A program made the translations under genes and the position numbers. A stretch of 64,000 nucleotides of DNA, from assembly GCF_000311785.1 (NCBI RefSeq), contig NZ_HE978537.1:185788-249787 (forward strand), written 5' to 3'. A model generated the notes under the pieces. The model was given only the letters and a program-made list of their open reading frames with translations, did no database searches and was not told the DNA's origin. Shown piece by piece: positions 2,710 to 18,340 of the stretch; within the stretch, counting starts at the first letter, position 1, and every line of letters begins with the position of its first letter. The stretch comes from Brevibacillus massiliensis. GTDB lineage: Bacteria > Bacillota > Bacilli > Brevibacillales > Brevibacillaceae.

Positions 2710-2740
2710 AAAAGCAGCCAACCTGTTGTCAAGTTGGCTG
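2707..2740 (-). terminator. Rho-independent terminator after pxpA
   Basis: On the minus strand CAGCCAAC and GTTGGCTG form an eight-base stem with a ten-base loop, followed by a run of T residues. It closes the long cox-pxp operon and separates it from the activator gene. Confidence 0.85.
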
Positions 2741-2754
2741 TCCATCTATCCACG

Positions 2755-3525
2755 TTATGAGACATTCAATACATCGCGCGCCGGTTGAATCGCGATCCCC
2801 GCCTGTTGAAACGCGGCCTGGATCTGTTTGACCAACTCGATCGCCCCCGGCGTATCTCCATGAATACAGATCGTGTCCGCCGTTACCTCGGCCTCCTCGC
2901 CGTCAGGCGTCCGCACCCTGCCCTCTTTCACCATCCGGACGACCCGCTGTGCCATCTCTGTGTAATCCTTGATCGTCGGACCTGTACGGGTCAAGACAAT
3001 CGAGCCATCCTTCGTATGTTCCCGGTCGGCGTACACCTCCCTGGCGATCGGAATGCCCATCTGCCGGCCGATCTCTGCGACCGCCGAGCCGTTCAACGCG
3101 AAGACGATCATCTTGTCGGAGACACTCGCCAGTCCTTCCAGAATGGCCCTGGCTATTTTCTCATCTTCCATCGCCATCATGTACAGCGCCCCGTGCGGCT
3201 TGCAGTGCTGCAGTTCCAGTTTGCTGGCGGCGGCAAATTCCCGCAGGGCCCCGGTTTGGTAAAGGACGTAATCCTTGATTTCCTCTGCGGAGGCTGTCAT
3301 GTAGCGGCGGCCAAACCCCATCATATCGGGAAATCCGGGATGGGAGCCAATGCTGACTCCGTGCTCCTTCGCCAGCCTGACGGTCCTCGCCATCACGTGC
3401 GGATCGCCTCCATGATAGCCGCAGGCGATGTTGGCGGAAGAAATGTATTTCATCATTTCCTCGTCATTGCCCATCTGGTAAAGACCGAAGCTCTCCCCCA
3501 TATCGCAGTTCAGATCGACTTTCAC
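2755..3525 (-). CDS. pxpA: 5-oxoprolinase subunit A (LamB/YcsF family)
   Basis: PxpA works with PxpB and PxpC in ATP-dependent opening of 5-oxoproline to glutamate. Family signatures are present in order: DLNCDMGE at the start, ANIACGYHGGDP, HPGFPD, KPHGALY and ICIHGD. The ~256-residue length is normal. I choose the GTG at 3523-3525 because GGAG lies eight bases upstream and it gives the family-typical start M-K-V-D-L-N; a GTG at 3534 also exists. It is the last gene of the run pxpB-pxpC-biotin carrier-pxpA. Because a biotin carrier and other ring-opening enzymes sit alongside, the true substrate could be another lactam. Confidence 0.93.
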   Translation of the reverse strand: MKVDLNCDMGESFGLYQMGNDEEMMKYISSANIACGYHGGDPHVMARTVRLAKEHGVSIGSHPGFPDMMGFGRRYMTASAEEIKDYVLYQTGALREFAAASKLELQHCKPHGALYMMAMEDEKIARAILEGLASVSDKMIVFALNGSAVAEIGRQMGIPIAREVYADREHTKDGSIVLTRTGPTIKDYTEMAQRVVRMVKEGRVRTPDGEEAEVTADTICIHGDTPGAIELVKQIQAAFQQAGIAIQPARDVLNVS

Positions 3526-3568
3526 CCGTTTCACTCCTCACGCTTGCTGTCCGCAAAACGGCACAGCA

Positions 3569-3811
3569 TTATTTAAGCACCAGAAGCTCTTGCCCTGCGT
3601 CGACAATTCCCTCGTTATCCACGACAAACTTTTCGATGATGCCGTCTTCTTCCGCCTTCACTTCGTAGAAATTTTTCATCACTTCGATCAATCCCACGGT
3701 ATCCCCCGCTTTGACCGCATCCCCCTCTTTGAAGAATTCGGCTTCCTCCGGGCTCGGTTTGCGGTAAAAAACTCCCGGCAGCGGAGAGAGTATTGCTTTT
3801 TTCTGGCTCAT
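3569..3811 (-). CDS. Biotin carboxyl carrier protein-like (AccB-type biotinyl domain)
   Basis: This is an ~80-residue stand-alone biotinyl/lipoyl domain. The attachment motif EVMKNF is present, with Lys46 as the expected biotinylated residue, and it is preceded by the GD-x-V-x-x-GD-T-V pattern. The start at 3811 follows AAGGGGGAA; an earlier in-frame ATG would overlap pxpC. It lies between pxpC and pxpA, and small biotin carriers often accompany KipI/KipA/YcsF genes. KipI and KipA resemble the carboxyltransferase domain of urea amidolyase, so a biotin-dependent carboxyl transfer is conceivable. No biotin carboxylase gene is seen in the window; the housekeeping one might serve. Function is inferred. 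Confidence 0.85.
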   Translation of the reverse strand: MSQKKAILSPLPGVFYRKPSPEEAEFFKEGDAVKAGDTVGLIEVMKNFYEVKAEEDGIIEKFVVDNEGIVDAGQELLVLK

Positions 3812-3839: not shown

Positions 3840-4808
3840 TCAAACGGCATCCGCTATCCGCTTCAATTTCTCCTGGACTTCCCGCCGCGCCTGCAACGCC
3901 TGTTCCAACGTGACAGCGACGAAATGCACTTTTTCGTTGGTCTTGATTTGCGCCATTCGATTCAGGTCACTGCTGATGACGGTCGCGATCGTCGCATATC
4001 CGCCGCCGGTCACGGCATCGTGGAGCAGCACGATCGGCTCTACGCCGTCAGGAACCTGAATTGACCCGATCGGGTACCCCAGGTCGGTGACGTTGGACGG
4101 GTTGCTCCCCGCGCCGAATGGCTGTTCCCGCTCGACGAAGCGGAGCCGCTCGCCCTTGTGCCTGTACCCGATCCGGTTTGCCTCAGGGGTGACCGTCCAT
4201 TCGATTTCGAGGAAGGTTTGCAAGCTCTCCTCGGTCAGGCGGTAGCTGCAGAGGCCGACTACGACTCTGATCTCATGTGATTTGCTGTAGACGGGAATCA
4301 ATTCCGGAGAAATCCTTGTCCCCGCCTTGACGTCTTTCACTTTCATCTCGCCGATCGGCACTTCGTCCCCGGCGGCCAGCGCCCGGCCTTCAAAACCGCC
4401 GATCCCGATCAGCGTATAGGTAGAGCGGGAGTTCATCACCAGCGGCACGTCGATGCCGCCTTCGACAGCGAGATACGTCCTCGCCCCCATCTGGACAAAA
4501 TCGAACGATAAGACGTCACCCGCTTTGACCTCCAGCGTTTCCCACATCGGCACGGAGACGCCGTTGATTTTGGGCGGGATCTGCCCCCCCGTCAGGCTGA
4601 TGCGCATCCCCCGCTCGAACAAAAGCTCCGGCCCCAGATAGGTAATCTCCAGCACAGCGGCATTGGGGTGGTTGCCTACCAGGAGGTTGGCGACTGTAAA
4701 AGCGTATTTGTCCATCGCGCCGGAGGGAGGCATGCCAATCTCGTAGAGTCCGATTCTGCCGTTGTCCTGAACAGTCGTCTGCAATCCGGGCTTGATCACT
4801 TTAATCAT
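3840..4808 (-). CDS. pxpC: 5-oxoprolinase subunit C (KipA, biotin-dependent carboxyltransferase fold)
   Basis: The 322-residue protein belongs to the KipA/PxpC family. It has the N-terminal VIKPGLQTTVQD, then LEITYLGPEL, and RPxGAGSNP-like and DAVTGGGY segments typical of the family. With PxpB it forms the carboxyltransferase-like half of 5-oxoprolinase. Its ATG (4806-4808) sits inside the end of pxpB with the overlap ATGATTAA, which suggests translational coupling. The nearest ribosome-binding site is GGGAGG about eight bases upstream. The 3' end is 28 bases before the biotin carrier start. Confidence 0.92.
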   Translation of the reverse strand: MIKVIKPGLQTTVQDNGRIGLYEIGMPPSGAMDKYAFTVANLLVGNHPNAAVLEITYLGPELLFERGMRISLTGGQIPPKINGVSVPMWETLEVKAGDVLSFDFVQMGARTYLAVEGGIDVPLVMNSRSTYTLIGIGGFEGRALAAGDEVPIGEMKVKDVKAGTRISPELIPVYSKSHEIRVVVGLCSYRLTEESLQTFLEIEWTVTPEANRIGYRHKGERLRFVEREQPFGAGSNPSNVTDLGYPIGSIQVPDGVEPIVLLHDAVTGGGYATIATVISSDLNRMAQIKTNEKVHFVAVTLEQALQARREVQEKLKRIADAV

Positions 4809-5688
4809 GGTATAACCTCCCCATTACCATCTCCGAGAACTTCTCCGGGTCGGCCAGCACGTCGCTTGGCGTAAACGAGAACTCTTTCTTGCGGTAGACG
4901 AACTCTCCCGCCTCGACCTGACTTCTGATCTCCTCGTATTCCTCTTTCGTGATGCTCCTGTAGCGGAAGATGTCCCCCTGCTTCGGAAACACCATCGAAT
5001 CGCGGAAGTCAGGCAGGGTCTGTTCCTTTTGGTAGATGGGCGCCGGGGCGATCCCGTACATCTGGTACCCGCCCGCTCCCTGCACCGGATAGATGACGGA
5101 GAAGGCGCCGCCAAAACCGAAGGTCCGCTCCGGGGTAAACGTACGGGGGCGTACGTACTTCGGCACTTCGATCTGCTTCTCGCGCGGCACGATCTGAAAG
5201 CACCAGGGCAGACCGGGAACGAAGCCGATCATGGAAACCAGGTAGGGAGCCCGCGTCAGCGCGTCGATAAACTCCTCTTTGCTGGCGTAGCCGTTGATGC
5301 GGGCCGAGTACTCCAGATCGGTCGACTCGGGATCCTGGTGCCGGTCGCGAAAGCGCATGACCGCTTCATGTGTCCAGGGATCTTCAAACCAGACCGGCAC
5401 GTCGACCAAGCGGGAGCTGATCGTGATGTCGTCCAGGTCTTTGACCGACTCTTCTATCGCCTTCAGCTCTTTGATCAAGTCGTCCGGGTGAAACACGTCG
5501 GGGTCGACACGCACCATGTATGACGCGTTGGACGGGCAAATATCCAAAATCCCTTCGATATTTTTTTCCTTCAGTTTCCTGGTGATGGCAATTCCTTTAA
5601 AATTGGCTTCCAGGCTCATCTCTTCCGACAGTTGAACGAAAACAAACTCGTCCCCGCCGTACTCGTATCGGGTATGTAGATTGCTCAT
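4801..5688 (-). CDS. pxpB: 5-oxoprolinase subunit B (KipI family)
   Basis: The 295-residue protein is a KipI/PxpB family member that pairs with PxpC. Visible family features are GGDEF at the N-terminus, ILDICPSNASYMVR, VDVPVWF and the core MIGFVPGLPW followed by VPKYVRPR and GFGG. In B. subtilis KipI also inhibits the sporulation kinase KinA, but the pxp context here argues for the enzymatic role. The ATG at 5688 follows GGAGGTGA. The stop codon overlaps the pxpC start and the start overlaps the end of the mocA-like gene, so the three are tightly coupled. The frameshifted gene at 1-519 is a paralogue. Confidence 0.92.
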   Translation of the reverse strand: MSNLHTRYEYGGDEFVFVQLSEEMSLEANFKGIAITRKLKEKNIEGILDICPSNASYMVRVDPDVFHPDDLIKELKAIEESVKDLDDITISSRLVDVPVWFEDPWTHEAVMRFRDRHQDPESTDLEYSARINGYASKEEFIDALTRAPYLVSMIGFVPGLPWCFQIVPREKQIEVPKYVRPRTFTPERTFGFGGAFSVIYPVQGAGGYQMYGIAPAPIYQKEQTLPDFRDSMVFPKQGDIFRYRSITKEEYEEIRSQVEAGEFVYRKKEFSFTPSDVLADPEKFSEMVMGRLYHD

Positions 5689-6335
5689 TTTCCCTCACCT
5701 CCGGGTATTGTCACATCAGAACTTTTTCTCTCGAGCATCCACAGGGCCTGCCTGTACGCCTCCCGGGTGTCGATGTCAAACAGGATGCCGGGATCGTCCA
5801 CCGGGATCCGGATTCGCTGCCGCATCGTCCCCAGTATCGGCTTCGCCCCCTGGTCGCCTTCCAATTTGTGGAATGCTTCTGCATCTACGTTGCCGAAAAA
5901 GACGGGGTGGCCTGCATCGCCTTGAAAAGCGGGCTGCACGACAAAGGGCTCCTGCCATTCCGACAGCAGGCCCGCTCCCCGCTGCATGACGGATTGGATG
6001 GTTTCGTCTGCGATCAGGGGAAGGTCGGCGAGAAATACCATGACTGCCGGATGGGCTGCCGCCTGCATTCCCCGGACAAGCGAAGAGCTTTGCCCGGAAG
6101 CGAAAGCGGGATTGACCACCCAGCGAAACCGGGAGTCGGCAATGCGGATTTCGCGCTGGATCTCCTCCGCCCGGTAGCCGATCACAGCGATCACCTCGGC
6201 CACCTTCGCCGCGAGCACTTGGCGGATCACCCGCTCCAGCAGACAGCTGCCTCCCAGCTTCAGCAGTTGTTTCGGCTCACCCATTCTCGTCGACATCCCT
6301 GCAGCGAGGATCACTGCTGATACCTGCGGTTTCAC
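5685..6335 (-). CDS. MocA-like molybdenum cofactor cytidylyltransferase
   Basis: This 216-residue protein belongs to the MobA/MocA nucleotidyltransferase family. It should add CMP to molybdopterin to make the MCD form of the cofactor, which CO-dehydrogenase-type hydroxylases use. The N-terminal signature LAAGMSTRMGEPKQLL binds nucleotide and the metal-binding segment FLADLP lies near the middle. The start is a GTG at 6335 with a GGGGGGAG site upstream. Its place among cox maturation genes supports cofactor supply to CoxL. It links the Mo-enzyme genes to the pxp genes by overlapping pxpB. Confidence 0.88.
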   Translation of the reverse strand: MKPQVSAVILAAGMSTRMGEPKQLLKLGGSCLLERVIRQVLAAKVAEVIAVIGYRAEEIQREIRIADSRFRWVVNPAFASGQSSSLVRGMQAAAHPAVMVFLADLPLIADETIQSVMQRGAGLLSEWQEPFVVQPAFQGDAGHPVFFGNVDAEAFHKLEGDQGAKPILGTMRQRIRIPVDDPGILFDIDTREAYRQALWMLERKSSDVTIPGGEGK

Positions 6336-6356: not shown

Positions 6357-7823
6357 TTATCTTGCCGCAGGCTGATGGATGCCGGGGCGCTCGCGCAAGA
6401 AGCCCGCGCCATGGCCGCTGCGGAAGGCCAAGACCTCGGCCATGATGCTGACGGCGATTTCCTCCGGCGAATCGGCCCCGATATCCAGTCCCACAGGACT
6501 GAACATGCGGGCCAGCTCTTCTGCCCGAAAGGTCACGCCTGCCCTCTCCAGGGCTTCCAGCAGGCGGTTGCTGCGGGAGCGCGGGCCGAGCACGCCTACG
6601 TACGGCGCCTTCGATTGCAAGGCGAACCGCAGCGCTTCCTGATCGCGCTCCAGGTGGTGATTCATGACGACGACATAGGTGCGCCGGCCGATGCTGACCT
6701 GTTCCCCGTACGTCTCGGCATTGGCGAGGATGCGCACCGCTCCCGGAAAGCGTTCGGCTGTGTTGTACCCCGGCCGCGGATCGACCACCGTCGTTTTCAA
6801 TCCCAGGTCGAGGCTTGCCTTCGCCAGCGGGATGGCATCGTGCCCTGCGCCGAAGATCATCAACTCCGCCGATGGGACATTTACATCGAGGAAGACGCTC
6901 GCCATTTTTCCGCCCGGCAGGAGAATCTCCCTCGTCTCCGACTTCGGGGACTGCTCGGACAGCTTCTGGCTAGCCAGCTCGACGACCTGAGATGCAGCGT
7001 CTCGTCGCCGAGACTGCCGATCGGCGTACCTTCCTCCGCGACGAACAGCCGACTGGACGAATCCTCTAGGACTGCGGGTGAGCGCATAGGCAAACTGCAG
7101 GAATCTTTCGGCAGCCCCCGCCATGGAGCGGCTGGTGTCACACAACAGGACAAACCGCGCCTTGCGAAGCGGGTGTCCCTTCCAGGCAGGGAAGATAGCG
7201 TCACCGCCCGCTTGCAGGCTGTTTCGCAAGGTGCTGCGAAAGTCCAGGCGCCTTCCCTTGTGATCCGTTCGCCAGCGCCTGCTTCGCTTCAGCCGGACGC
7301 TTGCGGCAAACATTTTTGCGGCATTCAGCATTTCGCCGAGCTGGTCGGCCAAAACCCGCGCCGCCGCCTGATGATCCGCTGTATGGCGGCTGGGTCGAGC
7401 GGCCCGCCACATGCCTTCTGCCGTTCTCGAACAGCTGCCTTGCACCTGATGGCCTGCGCCATCGTTCAGCCCCATCCCGAAGCTGTCGCCGGGCTTCGAT
7501 GAATCCGCCGTGTCCGGTCCGGTCTTCCCATCCGTACCCGGCGCTTGTTTTCCGCTGGCCGCAGAGATCAGAGGAGCCTGGCTGTCAGCCTCCATGGAAC
7601 CGCTCGAGTGGAAAAAGCGCTGGTAGAGCTGGTCGAACTTCTCCTGTTCTGCTCTGCTGGAACAAAACACCAACCGGAGCGCCAAACGGAATTGCCTTTC
7701 ATCTGAAATATCTACCGCCGTCAAAGCTTGCAAGGCCTCTATCGATTCTCCGGGACCGCACGAGAAGCCGCACTCACGCAAGCGCCGGCCAAACGCCAGC
7801 ACGCGATCGGAAAGCTTAGCCAT
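6357..7823 (-). CDS. Hybrid ORF: truncated CoxE (VWA) joined to XdhC-like maturation protein
   Basis: The open frame of 488 residues joins parts of two cox maturation proteins. Residues 1 to ~240 look like CoxE: an N-terminal GESIEAL region, a long low-complexity stretch, then a von Willebrand MIDAS motif DTSRS near ~230. CoxE proteins usually continue ~150 residues past that motif, but here only ~20 remain. From ~300 onward the sequence is XdhC-like, with the Rossmann segment IFGAGHDAIPLAKA and VDPRPGYNTAERFP. Between about 6985 and 7075 the adjacent frame reads the expected XdhC stretch FVAEEGTPIGSLGDETLH, so the reading frame is disturbed there. A deletion that fused the genes plus a small indel would explain it. 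The start at 7823 follows GGGAGCAG and overlaps coxD. Confidence 0.65.
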   Translation of the reverse strand: MAKLSDRVLAFGRRLRECGFSCGPGESIEALQALTAVDISDERQFRLALRLVFCSSRAEQEKFDQLYQRFFHSSGSMEADSQAPLISAASGKQAPGTDGKTGPDTADSSKPGDSFGMGLNDGAGHQVQGSCSRTAEGMWRAARPSRHTADHQAAARVLADQLGEMLNAAKMFAASVRLKRSRRWRTDHKGRRLDFRSTLRNSLQAGGDAIFPAWKGHPLRKARFVLLCDTSRSMAGAAERFLQFAYALTRSPRGFVQSAVRRGGRYADRQSRRRDAASQVVELASQKLSEQSPKSETREILLPGGKMASVFLDVNVPSAELMIFGAGHDAIPLAKASLDLGLKTTVVDPRPGYNTAERFPGAVRILANAETYGEQVSIGRRTYVVVMNHHLERDQEALRFALQSKAPYVGVLGPRSRSNRLLEALERAGVTFRAEELARMFSPVGLDIGADSPEEIAVSIMAEVLAFRSGHGAGFLRERPGIHQPAAR

Positions 7824-8714
7824 GTTCGCTGCTCCCGGCAAGCAGTGTTCCGCTTTGCAATGCACTTTCCACCAATTCCCAATCTCCACGGTCTTTCAGG
7901 AAACAGCCGAACGTTGCCCTGACCGCCTCTTCGGGCAGCTGTCCCCGGTGGAGACCATCAGGGCCTGGGCCCAGTCCAAGCTTTCCGCGACGCCGAGAAC
8001 CTTGTTCAGCGGCATGCGGCGCAGTCGCTCCATCACACCGGCAATCTGCTGGGCCAGCCGCATGTCGATGTCGGGCAGCCTGACTGCGAGGATGGCCGCT
8101 TCCTTCTCGGGATTCGGGTAGTCGATCCACTGGTAGAGACACCGGCGGCGCAACGCGTCACCGAGCTCCCGCGTCCGGTTTGAGGTAAGCACAACATAAG
8201 GACGATGGACAGCGGTGATGGTGCCCAGCTCCGGGATGGTCACCTGAAATTCGGCGAGGACCTCCAGCAGAAACGCTTCAAACTCTTCGTCGGCCCGGTC
8301 AACCTCGTCAATCAGCAAGACGGGCGACGCCTGCTCATCACCTATCGCTTCCAGCAGCGGGCGGCGCAGCAAGAACGCCGGACTGAAAATCTCCGCCTCC
8401 CTCTCCTGGGGCGTTGCTCCGCTGTTCTCCGTCAGTTTGAGGTGAAGCAGTTGCTTCTGGTAGTTCCATTCATACAGGACTGTATTCACATCCAGCCCCT
8501 CATAGCACTGGAGCCGGATCAAGCGAGTGCCCAGCACACGAGCCAACACCTTTGCGATCTCCGTCTTCCCGACGCCGGCCGGCCCTTCCACCAGCAGAGG
8601 TTTTTGCAGGGCCATGACGAGGTGCAACTCAGTCGCTTGAGCCTGATCGGTTACATAACCCTGATCCCGAAATGCGTTTTCAATCGTGGCAATCTGTTCC
8701 AGGATGCTCCTCAT
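7816..8714 (-). pseudogene. CoxD-like MoxR-family AAA+ ATPase, frameshifted near the 3' end
   Basis: The AAA+ ATPase belongs to the MoxR/CoxD type that helps assemble the Mo-Cu or Mo active site. Walker A GPAGVGKTE (~45) and Walker B VLLIDEVDRAD (~130) are intact. At 7943-7946 a run of four C (G on the coding strand) shifts the frame. If one more G is assumed, the protein continues GGQLPEEAVRATFGCFLKD to a stop at 7816 and is ~299 residues, overlapping the next gene by ATGGCTAA as expected in an operon. As read, the last ~40 residues are replaced by nonsense. The start at 8714 is an ATG. Either a homopolymer error or true decay is possible. Confidence 0.8.
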
Positions 8715-8797: not shown

Positions 8798-9655
8798 CTA
8801 CAGCAAAATCTGACTTAGCGCACGCTCCGTATAGACCGCACTGAGATGTCGCCTGTATTCTTCGGAAGCGAACAGGTCGCTGCCGATCTCTCCGTCCTCA
8901 GCCGCCAGCGCTGCCGCTTCCCGAATATTCTCCGCTGTCGCTCTTTGGCCGAGCAGCGCCTGCTCTGCCGCTGTCGCTCTGTACGCGACATCGGCCACCC
9001 CGTTCATTCCGATCCGCACATAGTTGACTACTCCGTCCGGGTCGGTACCGGCGACAGCGCACACCCCGACCACGGCATACCCGGACGCAGGATGCGGGTA
9101 TTTCAGGTAGACGCTCTTCGTTCCCTCCGGCGGCACCGCGAAGGAGACAGACGTTACCAGACTTGTCTCCGGCAATGCGGTGATCAGCGGACCGAGGAAA
9201 AAGCCGTCTATTTCCACCACTTCCTGCCCGTCCTCGCCGTGCAGCTCGACGAGCGCGTCAAGTGCCAGCGCCACCCCCGGCAAATCGGCTGCCGGATCGG
9301 CGTGGGCGATATTTCCCCCGACTGTTCCGCGATTTCTCACCTGCAGGTCGCCGATCTGGCGGGCCGCATCAGCCAGGACCGGGATGTGCTCGCGAACGAG
9401 CGGATCTGACGCCAACTGGCTGTGAGTCGTCAACGCTCCGACGACCAGCCGGTTCCCTTCCTTCCGCACCCCGCGCAGCTCGGAGATCCGGCTGATATCG
9501 ACCAGTTTTCCCGGTGTTGTCAACCTGAATTTCATCAACGGGACAAGACTGTGTCCGCCGGCGAGCAGCTTCCCTTCCCCGTTGCTCTCCTGCAGCAGCC
9601 GGATCGCCTCTTCTACGGAAGCTGCACGGACGTACTCAAATGCACTCGGTATCAT
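8798..9655 (-). CDS. coxM: Molybdenum hydroxylase FAD subunit (CoxM-like)
   Basis: The 285-residue medium subunit binds FAD and passes electrons from the iron-sulfur subunit to an acceptor. The two FAD motifs of the family are present: AGGHSLVPLMKFR (32-44) and TVGGNIAHADPAAD (111-124). I choose the ATG at 9655 because it overlaps the coxL stop as ATGA and follows GGGGGGAG; an upstream in-frame start is less likely. The order S-L-M here differs from the M-S-L order of classical coxMSL operons. It is followed by the 13-bp hairpin and coxD. Confidence 0.92.
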   Translation of the reverse strand: MIPSAFEYVRAASVEEAIRLLQESNGEGKLLAGGHSLVPLMKFRLTTPGKLVDISRISELRGVRKEGNRLVVGALTTHSQLASDPLVREHIPVLADAARQIGDLQVRNRGTVGGNIAHADPAADLPGVALALDALVELHGEDGQEVVEIDGFFLGPLITALPETSLVTSVSFAVPPEGTKSVYLKYPHPASGYAVVGVCAVAGTDPDGVVNYVRIGMNGVADVAYRATAAEQALLGQRATAENIREAAALAAEDGEIGSDLFASEEYRRHLSAVYTERALSQILL

Positions 9656-12000
9656 TCGCCACTCCCCCCGTTTCGCATCGCCTTCCACACCTTCTCAGGC
9701 GTCAGCGGCATATCCAAATCTTTGATCCCAAACGGCCTCAGGGCATCCATCACCGCATTGGCGACAGCCGGCGGTGCCGCTGTCGTGCCGGTCTCTCCAA
9801 TCCCTTTGGCACCGAGCGGATTGACCGGTGACGGGGTCTCGGTAAAGGCCGTCTCAATGGTCGGGAAGAAGCGGGCCTTCGGCATCGTGTAGTCCATAAA
9901 CGTCCCGGATAAAAGCTGTCCGTTCTCCCCGTAGACCGCGCCTTCCCACAGCGCCTGCCCGACGCCCTGGGCGACGCCGCCATGCACCTGGCCCTCGGCC
10001 AGCATGGGATTGATCACGCGCCCCACGTCGTCGACGGCGACATACCGTTTCAGCTCCACCTGGCCGGTACTCCCGTCCACTTCCACGACGCAGATGTGAG
10101 CGCCAAACGGGTAAACGAAGTTGGACGGGTCGAAGAACGACTGCGCCTCCAGGGAAGGCTCCATGCCTTCCGGCAGGTTCCAGGCAAAATTGGCCGACTT
10201 GGCCATCTCCTGGAACGTGCGGGCCTGTCCGGGAACCCCCGCGACTTGGAAGATGCCTTCGGAGAATTCCAAATCTTCCTCCGCCACTTCCAGTTCGTGT
10301 GCGGCGATCTTTTTCGCCTTCTCGATGACCCGGTCGGTGGCGATCGCGACCGCGGCCCCGCCTACGGCTGTCGTCCGGGAACCGTACGTTCCCCACCCCA
10401 TGGAGATGCTCTGGGTATCGCCGTGGATGATTTCCACGTCCTCCATCGGGATGCCCAGTTTTTCCGCCACCACCTGTGAGAAGGCCGTCTCCGTTCCCTG
10501 ACCGTGCGGCGATGTCCCGGTATAGACGTTTACTTTTCCGCTGGGGTGAACGCGCACCGTGCTGTTCTCCCATACGCCGCCCTGAAATCCGATCGCTCCC
10601 GCCACCTTTGACGGGCCGAATCCGCACAGCTCAACGTACGTGGATACGCCGATGCCGATGTACCTGCCCTGTTTCCTCAGCTCTTCCTGCTCCTGGCGCA
10701 GCGCCTGATAGTCGATCATCTCCAAGGCTTTGTCCAGCGTGAGATGGTAGTCGCCGCTGTCGTAGACGCACCCCATCGGATTGGAGAAAGGGAATGCCTC
10801 TTTTTGCACCATGTTTTTCCGCCGGACTTCGACGGGATCCATGCCGATTTCGCGGGCGAACAGGTCTACCGCCCGTTCGATCTGGAACGTCGCCTCCGGC
10901 TTGCCCGCTCCTCGATACGCGTCAGTCGGCGTGGTGTTGGTGTAGACGCCGTACGTTACGACCGCCGCCCGCGGGATGGTGTAGGCTCCGGTCACCATCA
11001 AGCCGAAATCGATCGTCGGGCAGCCGGCGCCAAACGTGGACAGGTACGCCCCCAGATTGGCGGTATTCTTTACCCGCAGGGCCGTCATGATGCCGTCCCG
11101 CGTCCCGGCCAGCTCGATCTCGATCACCTCATCCCTGGCATGGGTCGTCGCCTTAAAATGTTCGCTCCGCTCCTCCGCCCATTTGACCGGCTGCTTCAAC
11201 TCACGCGCTACACATCCGACGACGGCCTCTTCCGTGTAAGTAGCGATTTTCGCGCCAAAGCCGCCGCCTACATCCGGAGCGATAATCCGCAGCTTCGATT
11301 CGGGAATGCCGAGCACCTCGGAATAGACCATGCGGTGGATGTGCGGGTTTTGCGTCGTACACCAGATCGTCATCTCGCCGCTGCCGGGATTGTACTGGGC
11401 GACGGCTGCCCGCGTCTCCATCGGATTGGGGATGACCCGCTGGTTGTACAACCGCTGTCTGACGACGACCTCTGCCTGTTCGAACACCTCGTCAGGGATC
11501 TCGCCCGCCTTCCAGACCAGGGCGAGATTGTTCGGCACGTCTTCATGGACGAGCGGCGCCCCTTCCTGCATCGCCGCTTCCTGCCCGACGACCGCCGGCA
11601 GTTCCTCGTACTCCACCACGATCAGGTCCAGGGCATCACGAGCCGTATAGCGGTCCTCGGCCACCGCCACCGCCACGGCTTCACCGGCGTACAAGACCTT
11701 GTCTACAGCGAGCGGACTCCGCGGTTTCGGCTTGAGGTCGGCGCCGGTGACAAACCACATCGCTGGAACCGCTTTCATTTTTTTGGCGATGTCCGCTCCG
11801 GTAAAGACAGCTTTCACGCCCGGCAGCTTGAGCGCTTCCGATACGTCAATTCGCTTGATCCGGGCGTGGGCGTAAGGACTGCGCAAAAAAGCGGCGTGCA
11901 GCATGCCCGGCAGCTTGATGTCGTCGGTGAAATTGCCGTTTCCGGTAATCAGGCGGGGATCTTCTTTTCTTTTGATACGTGCTCCAACCAAACCAGCCAT
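9652..12000 (-). CDS. coxL: Molybdenum hydroxylase large subunit (CoxL-like, form-II type)
   Basis: The 782-residue catalytic subunit binds the molybdopterin cofactor. It carries GGGFGAK (245-251), the active-site loop AYRGAGK (361-367) and a C-terminal GIGETGTTAAPPAVANA segment. True form-I CO dehydrogenases have AYxCSFR in the loop, so this is not a form-I CO oxidiser; the loop is close to the AYRGAGR of form-II and other hydroxylases. The likely chemistry is hydroxylation of a carbon next to nitrogen in a heterocycle, but the substrate is unknown. GGGGAGGG precedes the ATG. It is co-transcribed with coxS upstream and coxM downstream. Confidence 0.93.
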   Translation of the reverse strand: MAGLVGARIKRKEDPRLITGNGNFTDDIKLPGMLHAAFLRSPYAHARIKRIDVSEALKLPGVKAVFTGADIAKKMKAVPAMWFVTGADLKPKPRSPLAVDKVLYAGEAVAVAVAEDRYTARDALDLIVVEYEELPAVVGQEAAMQEGAPLVHEDVPNNLALVWKAGEIPDEVFEQAEVVVRQRLYNQRVIPNPMETRAAVAQYNPGSGEMTIWCTTQNPHIHRMVYSEVLGIPESKLRIIAPDVGGGFGAKIATYTEEAVVGCVARELKQPVKWAEERSEHFKATTHARDEVIEIELAGTRDGIMTALRVKNTANLGAYLSTFGAGCPTIDFGLMVTGAYTIPRAAVVTYGVYTNTTPTDAYRGAGKPEATFQIERAVDLFAREIGMDPVEVRRKNMVQKEAFPFSNPMGCVYDSGDYHLTLDKALEMIDYQALRQEQEELRKQGRYIGIGVSTYVELCGFGPSKVAGAIGFQGGVWENSTVRVHPSGKVNVYTGTSPHGQGTETAFSQVVAEKLGIPMEDVEIIHGDTQSISMGWGTYGSRTTAVGGAAVAIATDRVIEKAKKIAAHELEVAEEDLEFSEGIFQVAGVPGQARTFQEMAKSANFAWNLPEGMEPSLEAQSFFDPSNFVYPFGAHICVVEVDGSTGQVELKRYVAVDDVGRVINPMLAEGQVHGGVAQGVGQALWEGAVYGENGQLLSGTFMDYTMPKARFFPTIETAFTETPSPVNPLGAKGIGETGTTAAPPAVANAVMDALRPFGIKDLDMPLTPEKVWKAMRNGGSGE

Positions 12001-12002
12001 TG

Positions 12003-12530
12003 TCAGCTTCCCTCCCCTACTTGTACTGTGCCTTGGTCAACCGCGTTGCTGCCGCTTTCGGCCAGCAGTTTGGCCGCATGCTGGACGGCGCTGACGATGA
12101 ATTGGTAACCGGTGCAGCGGCAGATGACGCCCTCCAGCGCTTCCCTGATCTCTGCCTCGGTGGGATCGGGATTCTGCTGGAGCAAGCCGACCGATGCCAT
12201 CATCACGCCAGATGTGCAAAAGCCGCACTGCAATCCGTGCTTTTCCCAGAATCCCTGCTGGATCGGGTGCAGATTCTGCATGTCGCCCAGGCCCTCCACA
12301 GTCGTGATTTCCCCGCCGTCTGCCTGCACCGCCAGCACTGTGCAGGATTTGACGGCCTCCCCGTTCAACAGCACCGTACACGCACCGCACTGGCTGGTGT
12401 CGCAGCCAATGTGCGTGCCGGTGAGGCCCTGCTCATCGCGCAAGAAGTGTACAAGCAGCATGCGTGAATCCACTTCCGTGCTTTTCGCGACGCCGTTTAC
12501 GGTTACTGAAATTTCTGTCCTTTTCGTCAC
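12003..12530 (-). CDS. coxS: Molybdenum hydroxylase [2Fe-2S] subunit (CoxS-like)
   Basis: The small subunit of ~175 residues carries two [2Fe-2S] clusters that conduct electrons from the Mo site to FAD. The plant-type cluster motif CDTSQCGAC with a later C lies in the N-terminal half, and the second cluster cysteines are in CGFCTSG and CRCTGYQ. The GTG at 12528-12530 is the best start because GAGGAGGTGG is six bases upstream; a TTG at 12548 would overlap that site. It ends two bases before coxL. The C-terminal ~20 residues are a variable tail. Confidence 0.93.
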   Translation of the reverse strand: MTKRTEISVTVNGVAKSTEVDSRMLLVHFLRDEQGLTGTHIGCDTSQCGACTVLLNGEAVKSCTVLAVQADGGEITTVEGLGDMQNLHPIQQGFWEKHGLQCGFCTSGVMMASVGLLQQNPDPTEAEIREALEGVICRCTGYQFIVSAVQHAAKLLAESGSNAVDQGTVQVGEGS

Positions 12531-12557
12531 GACGATCCACCTCCTCAAAAATATGTA

Positions 12558-13010
12558 TCATGAAGGCAACATAAGTTGCTTCATTTCCTTATCTACTGCT
12601 TTAAAAAACTGTCCCAGAACCAGTTTGGCCACGCCGCCCATCACCCGCTGCCCTACCGACGCAAGAACTCCGGTCACCTGTACCTGCGAGGTGCAGATCA
12701 GCTTGGTTCCCTGCCCCTCCTCTTCCAATTTCATATCTGCAACAGCATCGATTTCACCCGGTTTCCCCTTGCCCCGGACGAGTAGCCGATAAAAGGCGGG
12801 CTCCTGTTGGTCGACTTGCTGTACCTCTCCGGTAAACAGCCCCTTCACCGGTCCGACGCTCAGGCCCATTTCAGCGTGGTAGACGCCTTCCTTCACCTCT
12901 TGAAACGACTGGCAGCCCGGCAGCGACTTCTTCAGCACCTGTTCATCCTGGATGTACTTCCAAACGTGTTCCCGCGGAATGTCAAACGTATATGTGTACT
13001 CGATTTGCAA
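12558..13010 (-). CDS. coxG: CoxG-like SRPBCC-family protein
   Basis: This 150-residue protein belongs to the CoxG/SRPBCC (START-like) family often found with CO-dehydrogenase-like hydroxylases. CoxG proteins are thought to anchor or assist the enzyme at the membrane. The family signs are W-x-x-I-x-D near residue 20, LPGCQSF and a central GPVKGLFTGEV stretch. It is the first gene of the operon. The start is a TTG (13008-13010) with AAGGAGTG about nine bases upstream. The sigma-54-like promoter at 13059-13074 lies ~50 bases before it. Confidence 0.88.
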   Translation of the reverse strand: MQIEYTYTFDIPREHVWKYIQDEQVLKKSLPGCQSFQEVKEGVYHAEMGLSVGPVKGLFTGEVQQVDQQEPAFYRLLVRGKGKPGEIDAVADMKLEEEGQGTKLICTSQVQVTGVLASVGQRVMGGVAKLVLGQFFKAVDKEMKQLMLPS

Positions 13011-13058: not shown

Positions 13059-13074
13059 TGCAAATTCCATGCCA
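13059..13074 (-). promoter_or_regulatory. Sigma-54 (-24/-12) promoter of the cox-pxp operon
   Basis: On the minus strand the bases are TGGCATGGAATTTGCA. Compared with the consensus TGGCACG-N4-TTGCW, only the sixth base differs, and the GG-GC distance is the required ten bases. It lies 49 bases before the coxG start codon. Two palindromes at 13128-13162 lie ~90-110 bases upstream of the predicted start site, as expected for activator sites. Confidence 0.85.
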
Positions 13075-13127
13075 GGGCTGGACGTGCTGAAACGCCTTCG
13101 TTTTCCCGCCATTCATCCACCTGGACA

Positions 13128-13162
13128 TTTCAATATTGAACAGGACTCTTTCATTATTGAAA
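13128..13162. promoter_or_regulatory. Paired palindromes, likely activator-binding sites for coxG
   Basis: TTTCAATATTGAAC (13128-13141, containing the perfect 12-base palindrome TTCAATATTGAA) and TTTCATTATTGAAA (13149-13162) have centres 21 bases apart, i.e. two helical turns. They sit ~100 bases upstream of the sigma-54 start site. Both share the TTTCA-N4-TGAAA pattern found at 2696-2709. Confidence 0.65.
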
Positions 13163-13177
13163 AATTCTCACAACAAG

Positions 13178-14032
13178 TCATCTCCCAATGCCGATCAGAA
13201 TAACGCCGGCTGTGATGACGATCGACATCGCGACCCGCCTCACCCCCCGGAGCTCCTTCAACACGAGGATCCCCAGCACTGTTCCGATCACGGTTCCGAT
13301 CTCCCGTATCGGGGCCACGTAGGAAAGTGGCGACAGCTGCATGGCAAACATGAACAGCATCGTCGAGCCGGGAACGAGCAAAGCTCCGAGCAGCACGGTG
13401 TGCCAATGCTTCCGGCATTCGCCGACGGCCGCTTGCGACCTCAGCACGGTGCGCAGCGCAATCAACAAATACGTGATGTAAGTCAACTGGATCAAAATGA
13501 TCGGAGACATGTGCTGCAAGATCACCTTGTCGGCAACGGTATACCCTGTGATGCAAAGCCCCACCCCGACTCCGGCTGCCACGCCCTTCAGCCCCGGGCC
13601 ATTCCCCCCGGTGATTTTGGACGGCGAAATCCCGCTGATGGCAAACAGCCCACCCACGATGCAGTCAAGGCCGACCCAGCCGATCCAACTGAGCGATTCG
13701 CGAAACAGCATAACTCCCAAAACCGTCACCAGCAGCGCGCCCGTTCCCCTGATCAGCGGGTAGACCTGGGACAAATCGCTATATGTGTAAGCTTTATCCA
13801 GCAGCAGGTAGTACCCGATCTGATACAAGATGCTCAGCGCGACAAAAAACCAGACGTGCAGGGGGATGCGGAAATGGGCCAGTTCCGCGATAAAAAAAGG
13901 CAGCAAAAGAAAAAAAGCCACAAACGTCGCCATCCAAAGAAACACGGTTTTGTGCTTTTCCTTCTTGGTGATAAAGTTCCAAGCGGCATGCATAATGCCC
14001 GAGCACAGCACGAGCAAAAGCGGGATGGTCAT
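13178..14032 (-). CDS. EamA/DMT-family membrane transporter
   Basis: The 284-residue protein has about ten hydrophobic segments arranged as two EamA repeats, each opening with a short loop and ending near an LFRES/VLKEL-type motif (MLFRESLSW at ~107 and LVLKELRG at ~260). Members of this drug/metabolite transporter superfamily move small metabolites in either direction. It lies between the cox operon and hyuA, on the same strand as cox, but is separated from coxG by the sigma-54 promoter. Its own promoter is unclear. A role in moving the pathway substrate is plausible but unproven. The ribosome-binding site (AGAGAGG) is rather far, about eleven bases. Confidence 0.85.
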   Translation of the reverse strand: MTIPLLLVLCSGIMHAAWNFITKKEKHKTVFLWMATFVAFFLLLPFFIAELAHFRIPLHVWFFVALSILYQIGYYLLLDKAYTYSDLSQVYPLIRGTGALLVTVLGVMLFRESLSWIGWVGLDCIVGGLFAISGISPSKITGGNGPGLKGVAAGVGVGLCITGYTVADKVILQHMSPIILIQLTYITYLLIALRTVLRSQAAVGECRKHWHTVLLGALLVPGSTMLFMFAMQLSPLSYVAPIREIGTVIGTVLGILVLKELRGVRRVAMSIVITAGVILIGIGR

Positions 14033-14145
14033 GCAACCAGAACCTCTCTTTTGTTATTCGAATTTTCTGTCTATATTCCATTCTATCTTAGCACAGCCCG
14101 CTGTGAATGAAAACAACTTTGCTGCAAACGGCATGTTTCGTCGGA

Positions 14146-14179
14146 TTTCAAAACCAAAAGACATCTTCCAAAAATGAAA
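14146..14179. promoter_or_regulatory. Candidate activator-binding sites upstream of hyuA
   Basis: TTCCAAAAATGAAA (14166-14179) matches TTTCA-N4-TGAAA in nine of ten arm bases. TTTCAAAACCAAAA (14146-14159) matches only one arm fully. Their centres are 20 bases apart and about 110-130 bases upstream of the predicted sigma-54 start site. Confidence 0.45.
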
Positions 14180-14255
14180 GCTTCCGTTCCCGCCAATCGC
14201 TTTTGAGCGGGACGATTTGACATGCATACGGGCTTTTTTTCGCGCGGGTCCCGCT

Positions 14256-14271
14256 TGGCATTGAATGTGCA
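14256..14271 (+). promoter_or_regulatory. Sigma-54 (-24/-12) promoter of hyuAB
   Basis: The bases TGGCATTGAATGTGCA keep the TGGCA of the -24 box, TGCA of the -12 box and the exact GG-GC spacing. Three non-invariant positions differ from the consensus. It lies 53 bases before the GTG start of hyuA, which has an AAGGAGGAGG ribosome-binding site. Confidence 0.75.
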
Positions 14272-14323: not shown

Positions 14324-16355
14324 GTGGGACATTATCGCGTTGCAGTTGACGTAGGAGGCACATTTACCGATGTCTTTATCTTTGACGAACAGAAAGGAGA
14401 GATTACGGTCACCAAAGTATCCTCTACGCCTGATAACCCGGCCGAGGGCATTATGCAGGGCGTAAAGCAAGCCGACGTTCCCCTTGGGGAAATCACGCTG
14501 TTTTCCCACGGCACGACGGTCGGCACCAATGCGCTGATCACCAGACGGCTGCCCAAAACAGCCTTCATCGCGACGAAGGGCTTTCGCGATGTGCCGGAGA
14601 TCCGGCGCGGCACAAAGCTCGACCTGTGGGACGCGTACGAAGATGTCGCTCCCCCCTACATCCGTCGGCGTGACCGCTTCGAGGTCACCGAGCGAATCGA
14701 CTACTCCGGTCAGCTCATCACGCCCCTGAATGAACAGGAGGCAAGAGAAATCGCGGGAATATTGCGCAAACGAGGAATCGAATCCGTTGCCATCGGCTTT
14801 ATGAACGCCTATGTCAACCCGGAAAACGAACAGCGAATGAAGGCGATCCTTCAGGAAGAGCTGCCGGAGGCGTACATCTGCACCTCCAGTGAAACCATTC
14901 CGGAGATGTTCGAACACGAGCGGATCAGCACGACGATTGTCAATGCTGTCCTCGGACCCATTGTCGGTTCCTATATTAAGGAACTGTCGGCATCCCTGCA
15001 GGAAGAAGGGTATGGCGGCGATGTGCTCGTGCTGCACTCGGGCGGGGGCGTCATGACTGCCGATACTGTGCCGCGCTTCGCTGCCCGACTCGCCAGCTCC
15101 GGAATCGCCGCCGGGGCCATCGCCAGCGCCCACATCGCCAAACTGTGCGGTTTCCAAAATGCGATCGGCCTGGATATGGGCGGTACCAGCACCGATATCT
15201 CGCTGATGTTCGACGGGCAGCTGCGCGTCACCAAGGACTGGTACATCGAGTACGGGTATCCGATCGGCTTTCCCAGCATCGAGATTTTGACCATTGGGGC
15301 TGGTGGCGGCAGCCTGGCCTGGATCGATCAGGGCGGTTCGCTGCGAAACGGCCCTCACAGCGCCGGTGCCGCCCCTGGACCGGCCTGCTACCAAAAAGGC
15401 GGACAGCAGCCGACCAATACCGATGCCAACCTGCTGCTCGGACGGCTGAACACGCATCTGCTGGGCGGACAGCTCATCCTGGACAAGGAGAGGGCGAGAG
15501 AGGTAATCGCGGAAAAGATCGGGGCGCCGTTTGGCTACAGCGAAGTGGAAGCTGCCAATGCGATCATCAAGGTGGCAAACGCCAACATGTGCGACGCGCT
15601 GCGCCTGATCTCGATCCGGCGCGGATACGACCCGCGCGACTTCGCCCTGGTCGTGTTCGGCGGCGCAGGGGCGCTGCACGGCGCTCACCTGGCCAAAGAG
15701 ATGGAGATCCCCACTGTCATCGTCCCGCCCTATCCCGGCATCACTTCCGCCATGGGCTGCCTCTTGGTCGACGTCCGGCACGACCTGTTCCGCACCTACC
15801 TGGCCCGGGCCCAAGACGTCACCCCCGACGATCTGGAAACAGCGTACAGGGAGATGGAGGAACAGGCGGCAAAGCTGCTCAGTGAAGAAGGGGTCGAAGT
15901 GGAGAACGTTCAGCTGATCCGCTATATCGACATGCGTTACATCGGCCAGTGGCGCTCGCTCTCCATTCCGCTCTCCCGGCCGGCCAGCTCGCTCGCGGAG
16001 GCGCTGGAGCTGTTCCACCGGGAGCACGAGCGGGAATTCGCCTTTTCCAATCCCCGATCAGGGCGTGGAAATCTACGGCCTGCGCGTGGAAGCGACCGGG
16101 GTCGTGCCAAAACCCGCCCTGCCCACCGAAGAGCCGCATGGACATCTCGAAGATGCCGTCAAGGAAATCCGCAGCGTCTACTTCGAGGAAGGCGGCGGCT
16201 ATGTGGAGACGACCGTCTACGACCGCAGCAAAATCCCCGTCGGCTCTGTGTTTCACGGACCGGCGATCGTCGAGCAGTTGGACTCGACGGTCGTAGTGCC
16301 GCCCGGATTTACCGCCGAGGTGGATGCGTATAAAAACATCCTCTTAACTTACTAA
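14324..16355 (+). pseudogene. hyuA: Hydantoinase/oxoprolinase subunit A (HyuA), frameshifted at a C4 run
   Basis: HyuA-type proteins use ATP to open hydantoin, oxoproline or related rings together with HyuB. The actin-fold phosphate motifs DVGGTFTD (9-16) and LDMGGTSTD (~285) are intact. At 16052-16055 four C residues shift the frame after FSNP. With one C fewer, the protein continues DQGVEIYGLRVEATGVV to a stop at 16353-16355, giving ~676 residues, the normal size. As read, the last ~95 residues are out of frame and stop at 16333. The start is a GTG after AAGGAGGAGG, and hyuB begins 17 bases downstream of the restored stop. Sequencing error or true loss cannot be separated here. Confidence 0.85.
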
Positions 16356-16372: not shown

Positions 16373-18340
16373 ATGGCTGAAACAAATGCAACACCAACCA
16401 AACTGGACCCCGTCACTTTTGAAGTGTTAAAAAACGCCTTTGTCAATCTCGTCGACCAGATGTCGGAACAAATTTTGCGCACCTGCTATTCCTTTGTCAT
16501 CTACAGCCGGGACTTCAGCTCGGCGATCTGCGACGCTCGGGGCAACACGATCATGCAGGGCACGCAGGACATCTCGGTTCACGTCGGCACGCTTCACTTG
16601 TCGGCAAAAGCCGTCATTGAGGACTTCGGCGACGACATTCACCCCGGAGATGTGTTTCTCATCAATGACCCTTATCGCGGCGGGACCCATTTTTGCGATG
16701 TCCGCGTGATCCGGCCAGTCTTTTACGAGGGGAAGCTGATCTCGTTCATGCAGTGCAACGGCCACTGGGCCGACGTGGGCGGCTACGTGCCCGGTTCGTT
16801 CAACGTCCAGTCAAAAGACCACTACGGAGAGGGTTTGCGCATCCCGCCCGTGCGCATCTGGAGCAAAGGGAACTACCTGACAGATGTCGCCGGCCTGCTC
16901 GTCTCCAACATGCGGGTGCCGGAAGAGCGCCTGGGGGATTTGCGGGCCCAGGCGGAGGCGACCCGGGTGGGAGAGCTGCAGCTTTTGCGGCTGATCGAGA
17001 AATACGGCGCAGACACTGTCCTGACAGCCTTTGATGAGGTGCAAAACTACGTCGAAAGACTGGCCCGGGGGCAAATTTCCGATCTGCCGGACGGAACCTG
17101 GGAGACGACCGACTACATCGACATGGATCCGGAAATCGGCGACATGCTGATCCCGATTCGGATCAAGCTGACGATTCAAGGCGACGAACTCTTTTACGAC
17201 CTGTCCGGTTCCCATCCGGCGATTAGCTGTTTTCTCAACTCCGGGTTCGGCGCATCGTTCTCCGCCGTCATCTCCGGGACGAAGACGTTCTTTCCGGACA
17301 TCCCGCTCAACTCCGGATTTTACCGGCTGGTGCACGTGAACTTGCCGGAAAATTCCGTCGTCAATGCTCCGTGGCCGGTCGCCGTAACCGGTTTTTGCTC
17401 GGGGGCGTACGAAAAAATCATGAACGCCATCTTTGAACTCTGGTCCTACATCATGCCGGAGCGGGCGCTCGCCTGTTCGTTCAATCTGGAGTACCTCTTG
17501 ATCGGCGGCTGGGACCGGCGCGAAGGATACCAGAACTACTTCATGTGGTACGACTGGATGGCCGGCGGACACGGCGGACGTGCCCACAAAGACGGCGGAA
17601 ATGTGCTGTCGCCCGTCTTTGGCGTGGGTCTCAGCATCCAGCCTTGCGAAGGCCAGGAACGGCTTTCTCCGGTCATCACCACGCATCACGAGATCGTCAC
17701 CGATTCCGGCGGGCCGGGCCGGTATCGCGGCGGGTGCGGACTGCGTAAGGGAGGCATTTTGACCAACTGCGAAAATACGGTGATGTCGTACTGCTGCGAC
17801 CGCTCCCGCTCGGTCACCTGGGGCATCCTCGGCGGACTTCCCTCTCTCCCGCACGGAGCCTGGCTGAATCCGGGCACGGCCGATGAGAAGTTTTTGGGCA
17901 CCGTCTTTTCCAACATCCCTTTAAAACCGGGCGACTCCTTTGACCGCCCTTCTGCCGGCGGGGGCGGCCTGGGCGACCCGCTGCAGCGCGATCCCCACGC
18001 CGTGCTGGAGGACGTAATCGACCAGTACGTCTCCATTGAGCGGGCGAGAAAAGATTACGGTGTCGTGATCAAAGAAAACGACTGGGAAGTGTATGACTAT
18101 GAAATTGACTGGGAGGCGACCGAGACAGAGCGCGCGTACATCCGCGCCCACCGCAAGGAGTGGCTGTGGGAAGACATCGCTTCTGTCGCGCAAAAATTCC
18201 GTGCCGGTGAAATTGACGAACTCGACCTGATTCGCCGCTACGGAGTGATCATGGACTACACCAGCGGCGAAATCCTGCCCACGTCCACAGAGCAGTACCG
18301 CGAAATGCTGTACAAGCGCACCCTGGCGTATTGGTCATAA
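16373..18340 (+). CDS. hyuB: Hydantoinase/oxoprolinase subunit B (HyuB)
   Basis: The 655-residue protein is a HyuB-family partner of HyuA. Family features include the N-terminal LDPVTFEVLKNAF, SRDFSSAICDARG, INDPYRGGTH (metal or substrate region) and the C-terminal SGGPGRYRGGCGLRKG and PSAGGGGLGDPLQR. The family includes N-methylhydantoinase, 5-oxoprolinase and subunits of acetophenone carboxylase-like enzymes, so the substrate is not fixed by sequence. An extra ~90-residue C-terminal tail rich in acidic residues follows the conserved core. AGGGAGGG precedes the ATG. It ends 6 bases before a strong terminator. Confidence 0.92.
   Translation: MAETNATPTKLDPVTFEVLKNAFVNLVDQMSEQILRTCYSFVIYSRDFSSAICDARGNTIMQGTQDISVHVGTLHLSAKAVIEDFGDDIHPGDVFLINDPYRGGTHFCDVRVIRPVFYEGKLISFMQCNGHWADVGGYVPGSFNVQSKDHYGEGLRIPPVRIWSKGNYLTDVAGLLVSNMRVPEERLGDLRAQAEATRVGELQLLRLIEKYGADTVLTAFDEVQNYVERLARGQISDLPDGTWETTDYIDMDPEIGDMLIPIRIKLTIQGDELFYDLSGSHPAISCFLNSGFGASFSAVISGTKTFFPDIPLNSGFYRLVHVNLPENSVVNAPWPVAVTGFCSGAYEKIMNAIFELWSYIMPERALACSFNLEYLLIGGWDRREGYQNYFMWYDWMAGGHGGRAHKDGGNVLSPVFGVGLSIQPCEGQERLSPVITTHHEIVTDSGGPGRYRGGCGLRKGGILTNCENTVMSYCCDRSRSVTWGILGGLPSLPHGAWLNPGTADEKFLGTVFSNIPLKPGDSFDRPSAGGGGLGDPLQRDPHAVLEDVIDQYVSIERARKDYGVVIKENDWEVYDYEIDWEATETERAYIRAHRKEWLWEDIASVAQKFRAGEIDELDLIRRYGVIMDYTSGEILPTSTEQYREMLYKRTLAYWS

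Follow-up and report, generated by a model that had tools for sequence, protein, structure and literature searches.

Genes and predicted promoters at the locus

The window analysed here, a stretch of 64,000 nucleotides from Brevibacillus massiliensis, contains a long operon on the minus strand, a hyu gene pair on the plus strand and, between them, a gene for an EamA transporter (13178–14032, minus strand) that is divergent from hyuA. The operon begins with a coxG-like gene (12558–13010), which has a TTG start with AAGGAG upstream, and continues with genes for the 2Fe-2S subunit (coxS-like, 12003–12548), the large subunit (coxL-like, 9652–12000, active-site motif AYRGAGKPE) and the FAD subunit (coxM-like, 8798–9688) of a molybdenum hydroxylase. 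These are followed by a MoxR/CoxD-type AAA ATPase (7896–8714), a single 510-residue frame in which an N-terminal part of CoxE is fused to a C-terminal part of XdhC (6357–7889), a MocA-like molybdenum cofactor cytidylyltransferase (5685–6335), PxpB/KipI-like and PxpC/KipA-like carboxyltransferase subunits (CD, 4801–5688; AB, 3840–4808), a biotinyl carrier protein (3569–3811) and PxpA (LamB/YcsF, 2755–3534). The coxS-like, coxM-like, ATPase, MocA-like and three Pxp genes were assigned from profile matches, and the biotinyl carrier from a VMKNF motif read from the sequence. Beyond pxpA lies the gene for a sigma-54 activator (539–2611, minus strand), and a terminator-like stem 3′ of pxpA (2715–2740, minus strand), between operon and activator gene, suggests that the latter is likely transcribed on its own. 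On the plus strand, hyuA (14324–16333) is predicted to encode a subunit of an ATP-dependent cyclic amidase, with the caprolactamase alpha subunit as its closest named family at a score below the cut-off, and hyuB (16373–18340) encodes the partner subunit by profile match.

Several genes of the pathway look altered relative to those of related bacteria. CoxE and XdhC are encoded by two genes in relatives such as Brevibacillus borstelensis (locus L068), and about 1 kb seems to have been lost here. Most relatives have the biotin carboxylase gene accC between the biotinyl gene and pxpA; it is missing here (window positions 3535–3570) and, judged by spacing, also from B. borstelensis and from L063, L066, L070 and L160. 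Immediately beyond the activator gene, the coding sequence of a second PxpB-like protein is split over two frames (window about 257–280; L111 19144–19167), through either a frameshift or a sequence error. With accC absent, CoxE fused to XdhC and the second PxpB frameshifted, the pathway may be decaying in part in this genome.

The initial annotation had placed sigma-54 promoters at 13059–13074 on the minus strand (TGGCATGGAATTTGCA, here P1) and at 14256–14271 on the plus strand (TGGCATTGAATGTGCA, here P2), oriented apart around the EamA gene, with molybdenum hydroxylase genes after the former and hyu genes after the latter. Both sequences are present at these positions, and the layout is as it described, with coxG-coxS-coxL-coxM downstream of P1 and hyuA-hyuB downstream of P2. 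Its statement that both promoters keep the −24/−12 core and spacing holds for P1, which matches TGGCAY-N5-TTGCW in full (GG and GC at fixed spacing), but not entirely for P2, in which a G replaces the first T of TTGC as the one deviation from the sigma-54 promoter pattern. P1 is the single match to TGGCAYN5TTGCW in the window, where 0.10 would be expected. The predicted P1 start is at about 13048, some 38 nt ahead of the TTG start of coxG, and the predicted P2 start at about 14282, some 42 nt ahead of the GTG start of hyuA. The looser pattern TGGCAYN6TGCW gives 81 matches in the genome and 37 for a reversed control, so that about half of such loose matches are the chance expectation, and P2, with a score of 12.3, ranks fourth in the window. 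For these reasons P2 is not significant by its own −24/−12 sequence, which is at chance level; with the reversed control yielding nearly half as many matches, acceptance of P2 on this match alone was dropped.

Paired palindromes and the activator

Palindrome pairs that were absent from the initial annotation lie ahead of both promoters and are predicted to be enhancers. The pair upstream of P1 (UAS1, 13128–13162) consists of two TTTCA-N4-TGAAA palindromes, TTTCAATAATGAAA and GTTCAATATTGAAA, which are 21 bp apart, contain 1 mismatch in 20 and lie 53 bp upstream of the promoter. The corresponding pair upstream of P2 (UAS2, 14146–14179) is degenerate (TTTCAAAACCAAAA / TTCCAAAAATGAAA), with 3 mismatches in 20, a spacing of 20 bp and a distance of 76 bp from the promoter. 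Each promoter has in this pair a putative upstream enhancer for an activator, as expected of a sigma-54 promoter. Across the 5.06 Mb genome, pairs with at most 3 mismatches occur at three places in the two spacings, two of which are UAS1 and UAS2: the P1 pair and one further site were found at the 21-bp spacing, whereas a spacing of 20 bp gave the P2 pair alone. Local shuffles equalled the P2 pair in 3 of 5000 cases and the P1 pair in 0 of 5000. A joint scan for a promoter and a palindrome pair within about 215 bp of one another returned P1 and P2 only in the window.

The activator, placed at the operon's other end by the initial annotation, is a true one by its domains and motifs. Its 690 residues comprise CBS-like and PAS regions, an AAA+ domain (PF00158, 239 bits) with the Walker A sequence GESGVGKE and the GAFTGA motif, and a Fis-type HTH (HTH_50/HTH_8); sigma-54 itself is also encoded in the genome. 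Orthologues of the activator in related bacteria are 46–73% identical over the full length, as against 38.5% for its best paralogue in this genome. The view that sigma-54 control of such genes is unusual in sporulating Bacillales has to be given up, since the genome has about 43 sigma-54 activator genes by strong matches to the activator domain, and N-methylhydantoinase A is over-represented among the sigma-54 targets predicted for Bacilli in a published scan (PMC12316311).

Conservation of predicted enhancer, promoter and activator

A CoxL search gave 49 loci, more than half of them from Bacillales and the best matches from Brevibacillus; genomes were compared at the family and class levels, the genus level comprising this genome alone. 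In all 15 loci with an activator orthologue, a UAS1-type pair bearing no more than 1 mismatch stands ahead of the first operon gene, together with a −24/−12 site as the counterpart of P1, a count to be read with the facts that the enhancer consensus was derived from these same loci and that the relatives are not independent of one another. The joint signal was found in 0 of 12 Bacillota loci with cox genes in which no activator orthologue was seen, three of which are incomplete stretches (L074, L082 and L108) while a fourth, from Alteribacillus (L079), ends before the activator's usual place. The promoter keeps to the first gene of the operon although that gene differs between relatives, being coxG in Brevibacillus and Aneurinibacillus, a PxpB-like gene in Siminovitchia and Bacillus badius, and moeA in Bacillus piscicola (L077).

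Linkage across genomes is a more independent test than the locus counts. Among 399 Bacilli genomes, 22 carry the activator and 6 have the exact pair, all 6 of them together with the activator (hypergeometric 1.4e-8, with the relatedness of the genomes left in) and with enhancer and activator separated by no more than about 13 kb. Among 39 genomes at the level of the family Brevibacillaceae, 9 have the pair at a tolerance of 1 mismatch, and 8 of these carry the activator. The ninth (L159) retains the activator's 3′ remnant only: a deletion at L159 9366–13753 (G011) has fused coxL, cut to its first 43%, with the final 14% of the activator gene, which marks this as a decaying copy of the system with enhancer and promoter retained. 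The initial annotation had proposed a search of related genomes as a check, and promoter plus enhancer were missing there only where no activator orthologue was found, an outcome in favour of its proposal.

Clusters elsewhere vary in their regulator and gene content. In two of the 12 loci, from Evansella clarkii (L098 2771–8759) and Neobacillus mesonae (L071 19515–21211), a non-orthologous activator with about 39% identity is encoded within or close to the cluster, where a −24/−12 site is present and a TTTCA pair is not, which suggests that the regulator was replaced. Genes of molybdenum cofactor synthesis (moeA, moaE, moaA and others) stand ahead of the cox genes in L077 (4837–8938), L079 and L072, in L077 directly after the enhancer and promoter.

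HyuA and HyuB orthologues that are 70–84% identical lie near the activator in L157, L158, L194, L198, L201, L202, L204, L206 and L207. A palindrome pair and a sigma-54 site precede hyuA in L157, L194, L198 and L204, and in L158 the site ahead of hyuA is TGGTATACTCCTTGCT, accompanied by a 3-mismatch pair. The position of the EamA gene is occupied in some relatives by an NCS1 permease gene, which in L157, L158 and L198 faces away from hyuA and has its own −24/−12 site. The palindromes are weaker or of a TTGCA type in L201, L202, L206 and L207, the TTGCA type being that of the more distant orthologues in L206 and L207, and no pair was found by the rule used in L199, L203 and L208. P2 gains support from this arrangement, in which the activator adjoins hyuAB elsewhere, often with enhancer and promoter. 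A second hyuA homologue is present at G000 C1:9398–17190, with two −24/−12 sites nearby and an activator gene that is interrupted by a stop or frameshift.

It could be argued that the activator works on P1 alone, P2 being degenerate or a chance match and hyuAB being expressed from another promoter or a relic. The chance-level −24/−12 sequence of P2 and the three mismatches and 20-bp spacing of UAS2 fit this explanation. We nevertheless consider it unlikely: the 20-bp pair is unique in the genome and stands at the correct distance from P2, the same spacing occurs with 0 mismatches in the relatives L194, L197, L200 and L205, and it is the close hyuAB orthologues that carry enhancer and promoter in the four loci named above. 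The promoters might instead be real and be driven by another of the roughly 43 activators, a number that leaves many candidates, and the Evansella cluster provides an example of a sigma-54 site with a non-orthologous activator and no TTTCA pair. Control of the present promoters by another activator appears quite improbable, given that the pair follows the orthologue group of the 539–2611 activator in loci (15/15 as against 0/12) and in genomes (6/6), at the short distances seen in the six exact-pair genomes. That the −24/−12 matches and palindromes are all chance features of AT-rich sequence has in its favour the half of loose genome matches that chance would supply; we give it almost no weight, as joint matches of promoter and pair numbered 0 in 100 shuffled windows and the elements persist in several families whose operons begin with different genes. 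The preferred reading, that a single local regulon under the 539–2611 activator has P1 and P2 as its sigma-54 promoters, with a likely role in catabolism of a cyclic amide or N-heterocycle, is in our judgement very probable. The proposal that both promoters drive the two operons under this activator is strongly supported at the level of comparative sequence, by the locus and genome counts and by hyuAB adjoining the activator elsewhere.

Predicted regulon and relation to known systems

In the mechanism that we envisage, the N-terminal CBS/PAS regions of the activator would sense a compound of the pathway. Conservation and linkage suggest that an activator dimer binds each TTTCA-N4-TGAAA palindrome. 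A hexamer may form on the pair, whose palindromes are two helical turns apart. The GAFTGA loop would then touch the sigma-54 polymerase at the −24/−12 site, with ATP used for opening; this contact and ATP-driven opening are established for the activator family. The leftward output would be the molybdenum hydroxylase, its maturation genes and the Pxp/biotin lactam-opening module, and the rightward output HyuAB as an ATP-dependent cyclic amidase. Elsewhere the regulon also takes in the NCS1 permease and molybdenum cofactor synthesis.

This regulon likely serves to break down a cyclic amide or N-heterocycle, which would supply nitrogen or carbon. In the pathway, a cyclic amide would be taken up and opened with the use of ATP, and an N-heterocycle would be hydroxylated, in an order of steps that we infer. 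Because many related bacteria have this switch ahead of the same set of catabolic genes, these probably form one pathway of nitrogen-ring breakdown under one signal. A broader reading, on which we are evenly divided, is that an undescribed catabolic pathway spread over Bacillales is defined by a single activator and a single enhancer code; in it the molybdenum hydroxylase, HyuAB and the biotin-linked Pxp complex would share one imported cyclic amide as their substrate, the latter two being unrelated ATP-dependent ring-opening enzymes. No description of this regulon was found in open-licence papers on sigma-54 in Brevibacillus or on sigma-54-controlled molybdenum hydroxylase or hyu genes in Bacillus.

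The analysis extends a promoter pair to a candidate regulon whose activator is named, whose enhancer motif can be read from sequence and whose gene list is kept in several Bacillales families. Shared control would tie together the molybdenum hydroxylase, two ATP-dependent ring-opening systems, the NCS1 permease and molybdenum cofactor synthesis, and would narrow the substrate search for enzymes annotated merely as "CO dehydrogenase", "5-oxoprolinase" or "hydantoinase". In genomes where the genes lie scattered, the enhancer may help to locate pathway members.

The enzymes resemble several characterized systems without matching any of them fully. Aerobic CO dehydrogenase CoxMSL likewise has three subunits and cox-type maturation genes, but the CoxL of this locus carries AYRGAGKPE in place of the AYxCSFR loop of form I CO dehydrogenase and scores under the CO dehydrogenase cut-off; with the form I loop lacking, CO oxidation was ruled out. 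For 5-oxoprolinase PxpABC, the PxpA subfamily cut-off was passed (345.7 over 226), while PxpB reached 69.7 of 145.6 and PxpC 246.8 of 500. Caprolactamase CapAB is the best match of HyuA and HyuB (alpha 491 bits, beta 340 bits), at scores far under the 1000-bit equivalog cut-offs, and HyuAB also resembles the ATP-dependent hydantoinases (PMC8453981).

Among regulators, RocR, AcoR and BkdR of B. subtilis are activators of sigma-54 catabolic regulons of a similar kind. The best-named NCBIfam match of the activator is PrdR, which activates proline reductase genes in Clostridia, at 433 bits below a curated cut-off of 795; the target genes are unlike, and no prd genes were found among the window genes scanned. 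The PrdR enhancer is TGT-N10-12-ACA (PMC6615313), and identity with PrdR was ruled out by the score and the different palindrome. GabR of the gab and SoxR of the sox genes in B. thuringiensis likewise combine a sensory N-terminus with AAA+ and HTH domains, are encoded near a catabolic operon, and have regulons in which an inverted-repeat enhancer lies near a TGGCAY-TTGCA promoter (PMC4279683, PMC4941409). Compared with these PAS-type activator regulons of Bacilli, the present locus has other genes and an enhancer composed of two TTTCA-N4-TGAAA palindromes 20–22 bp apart.
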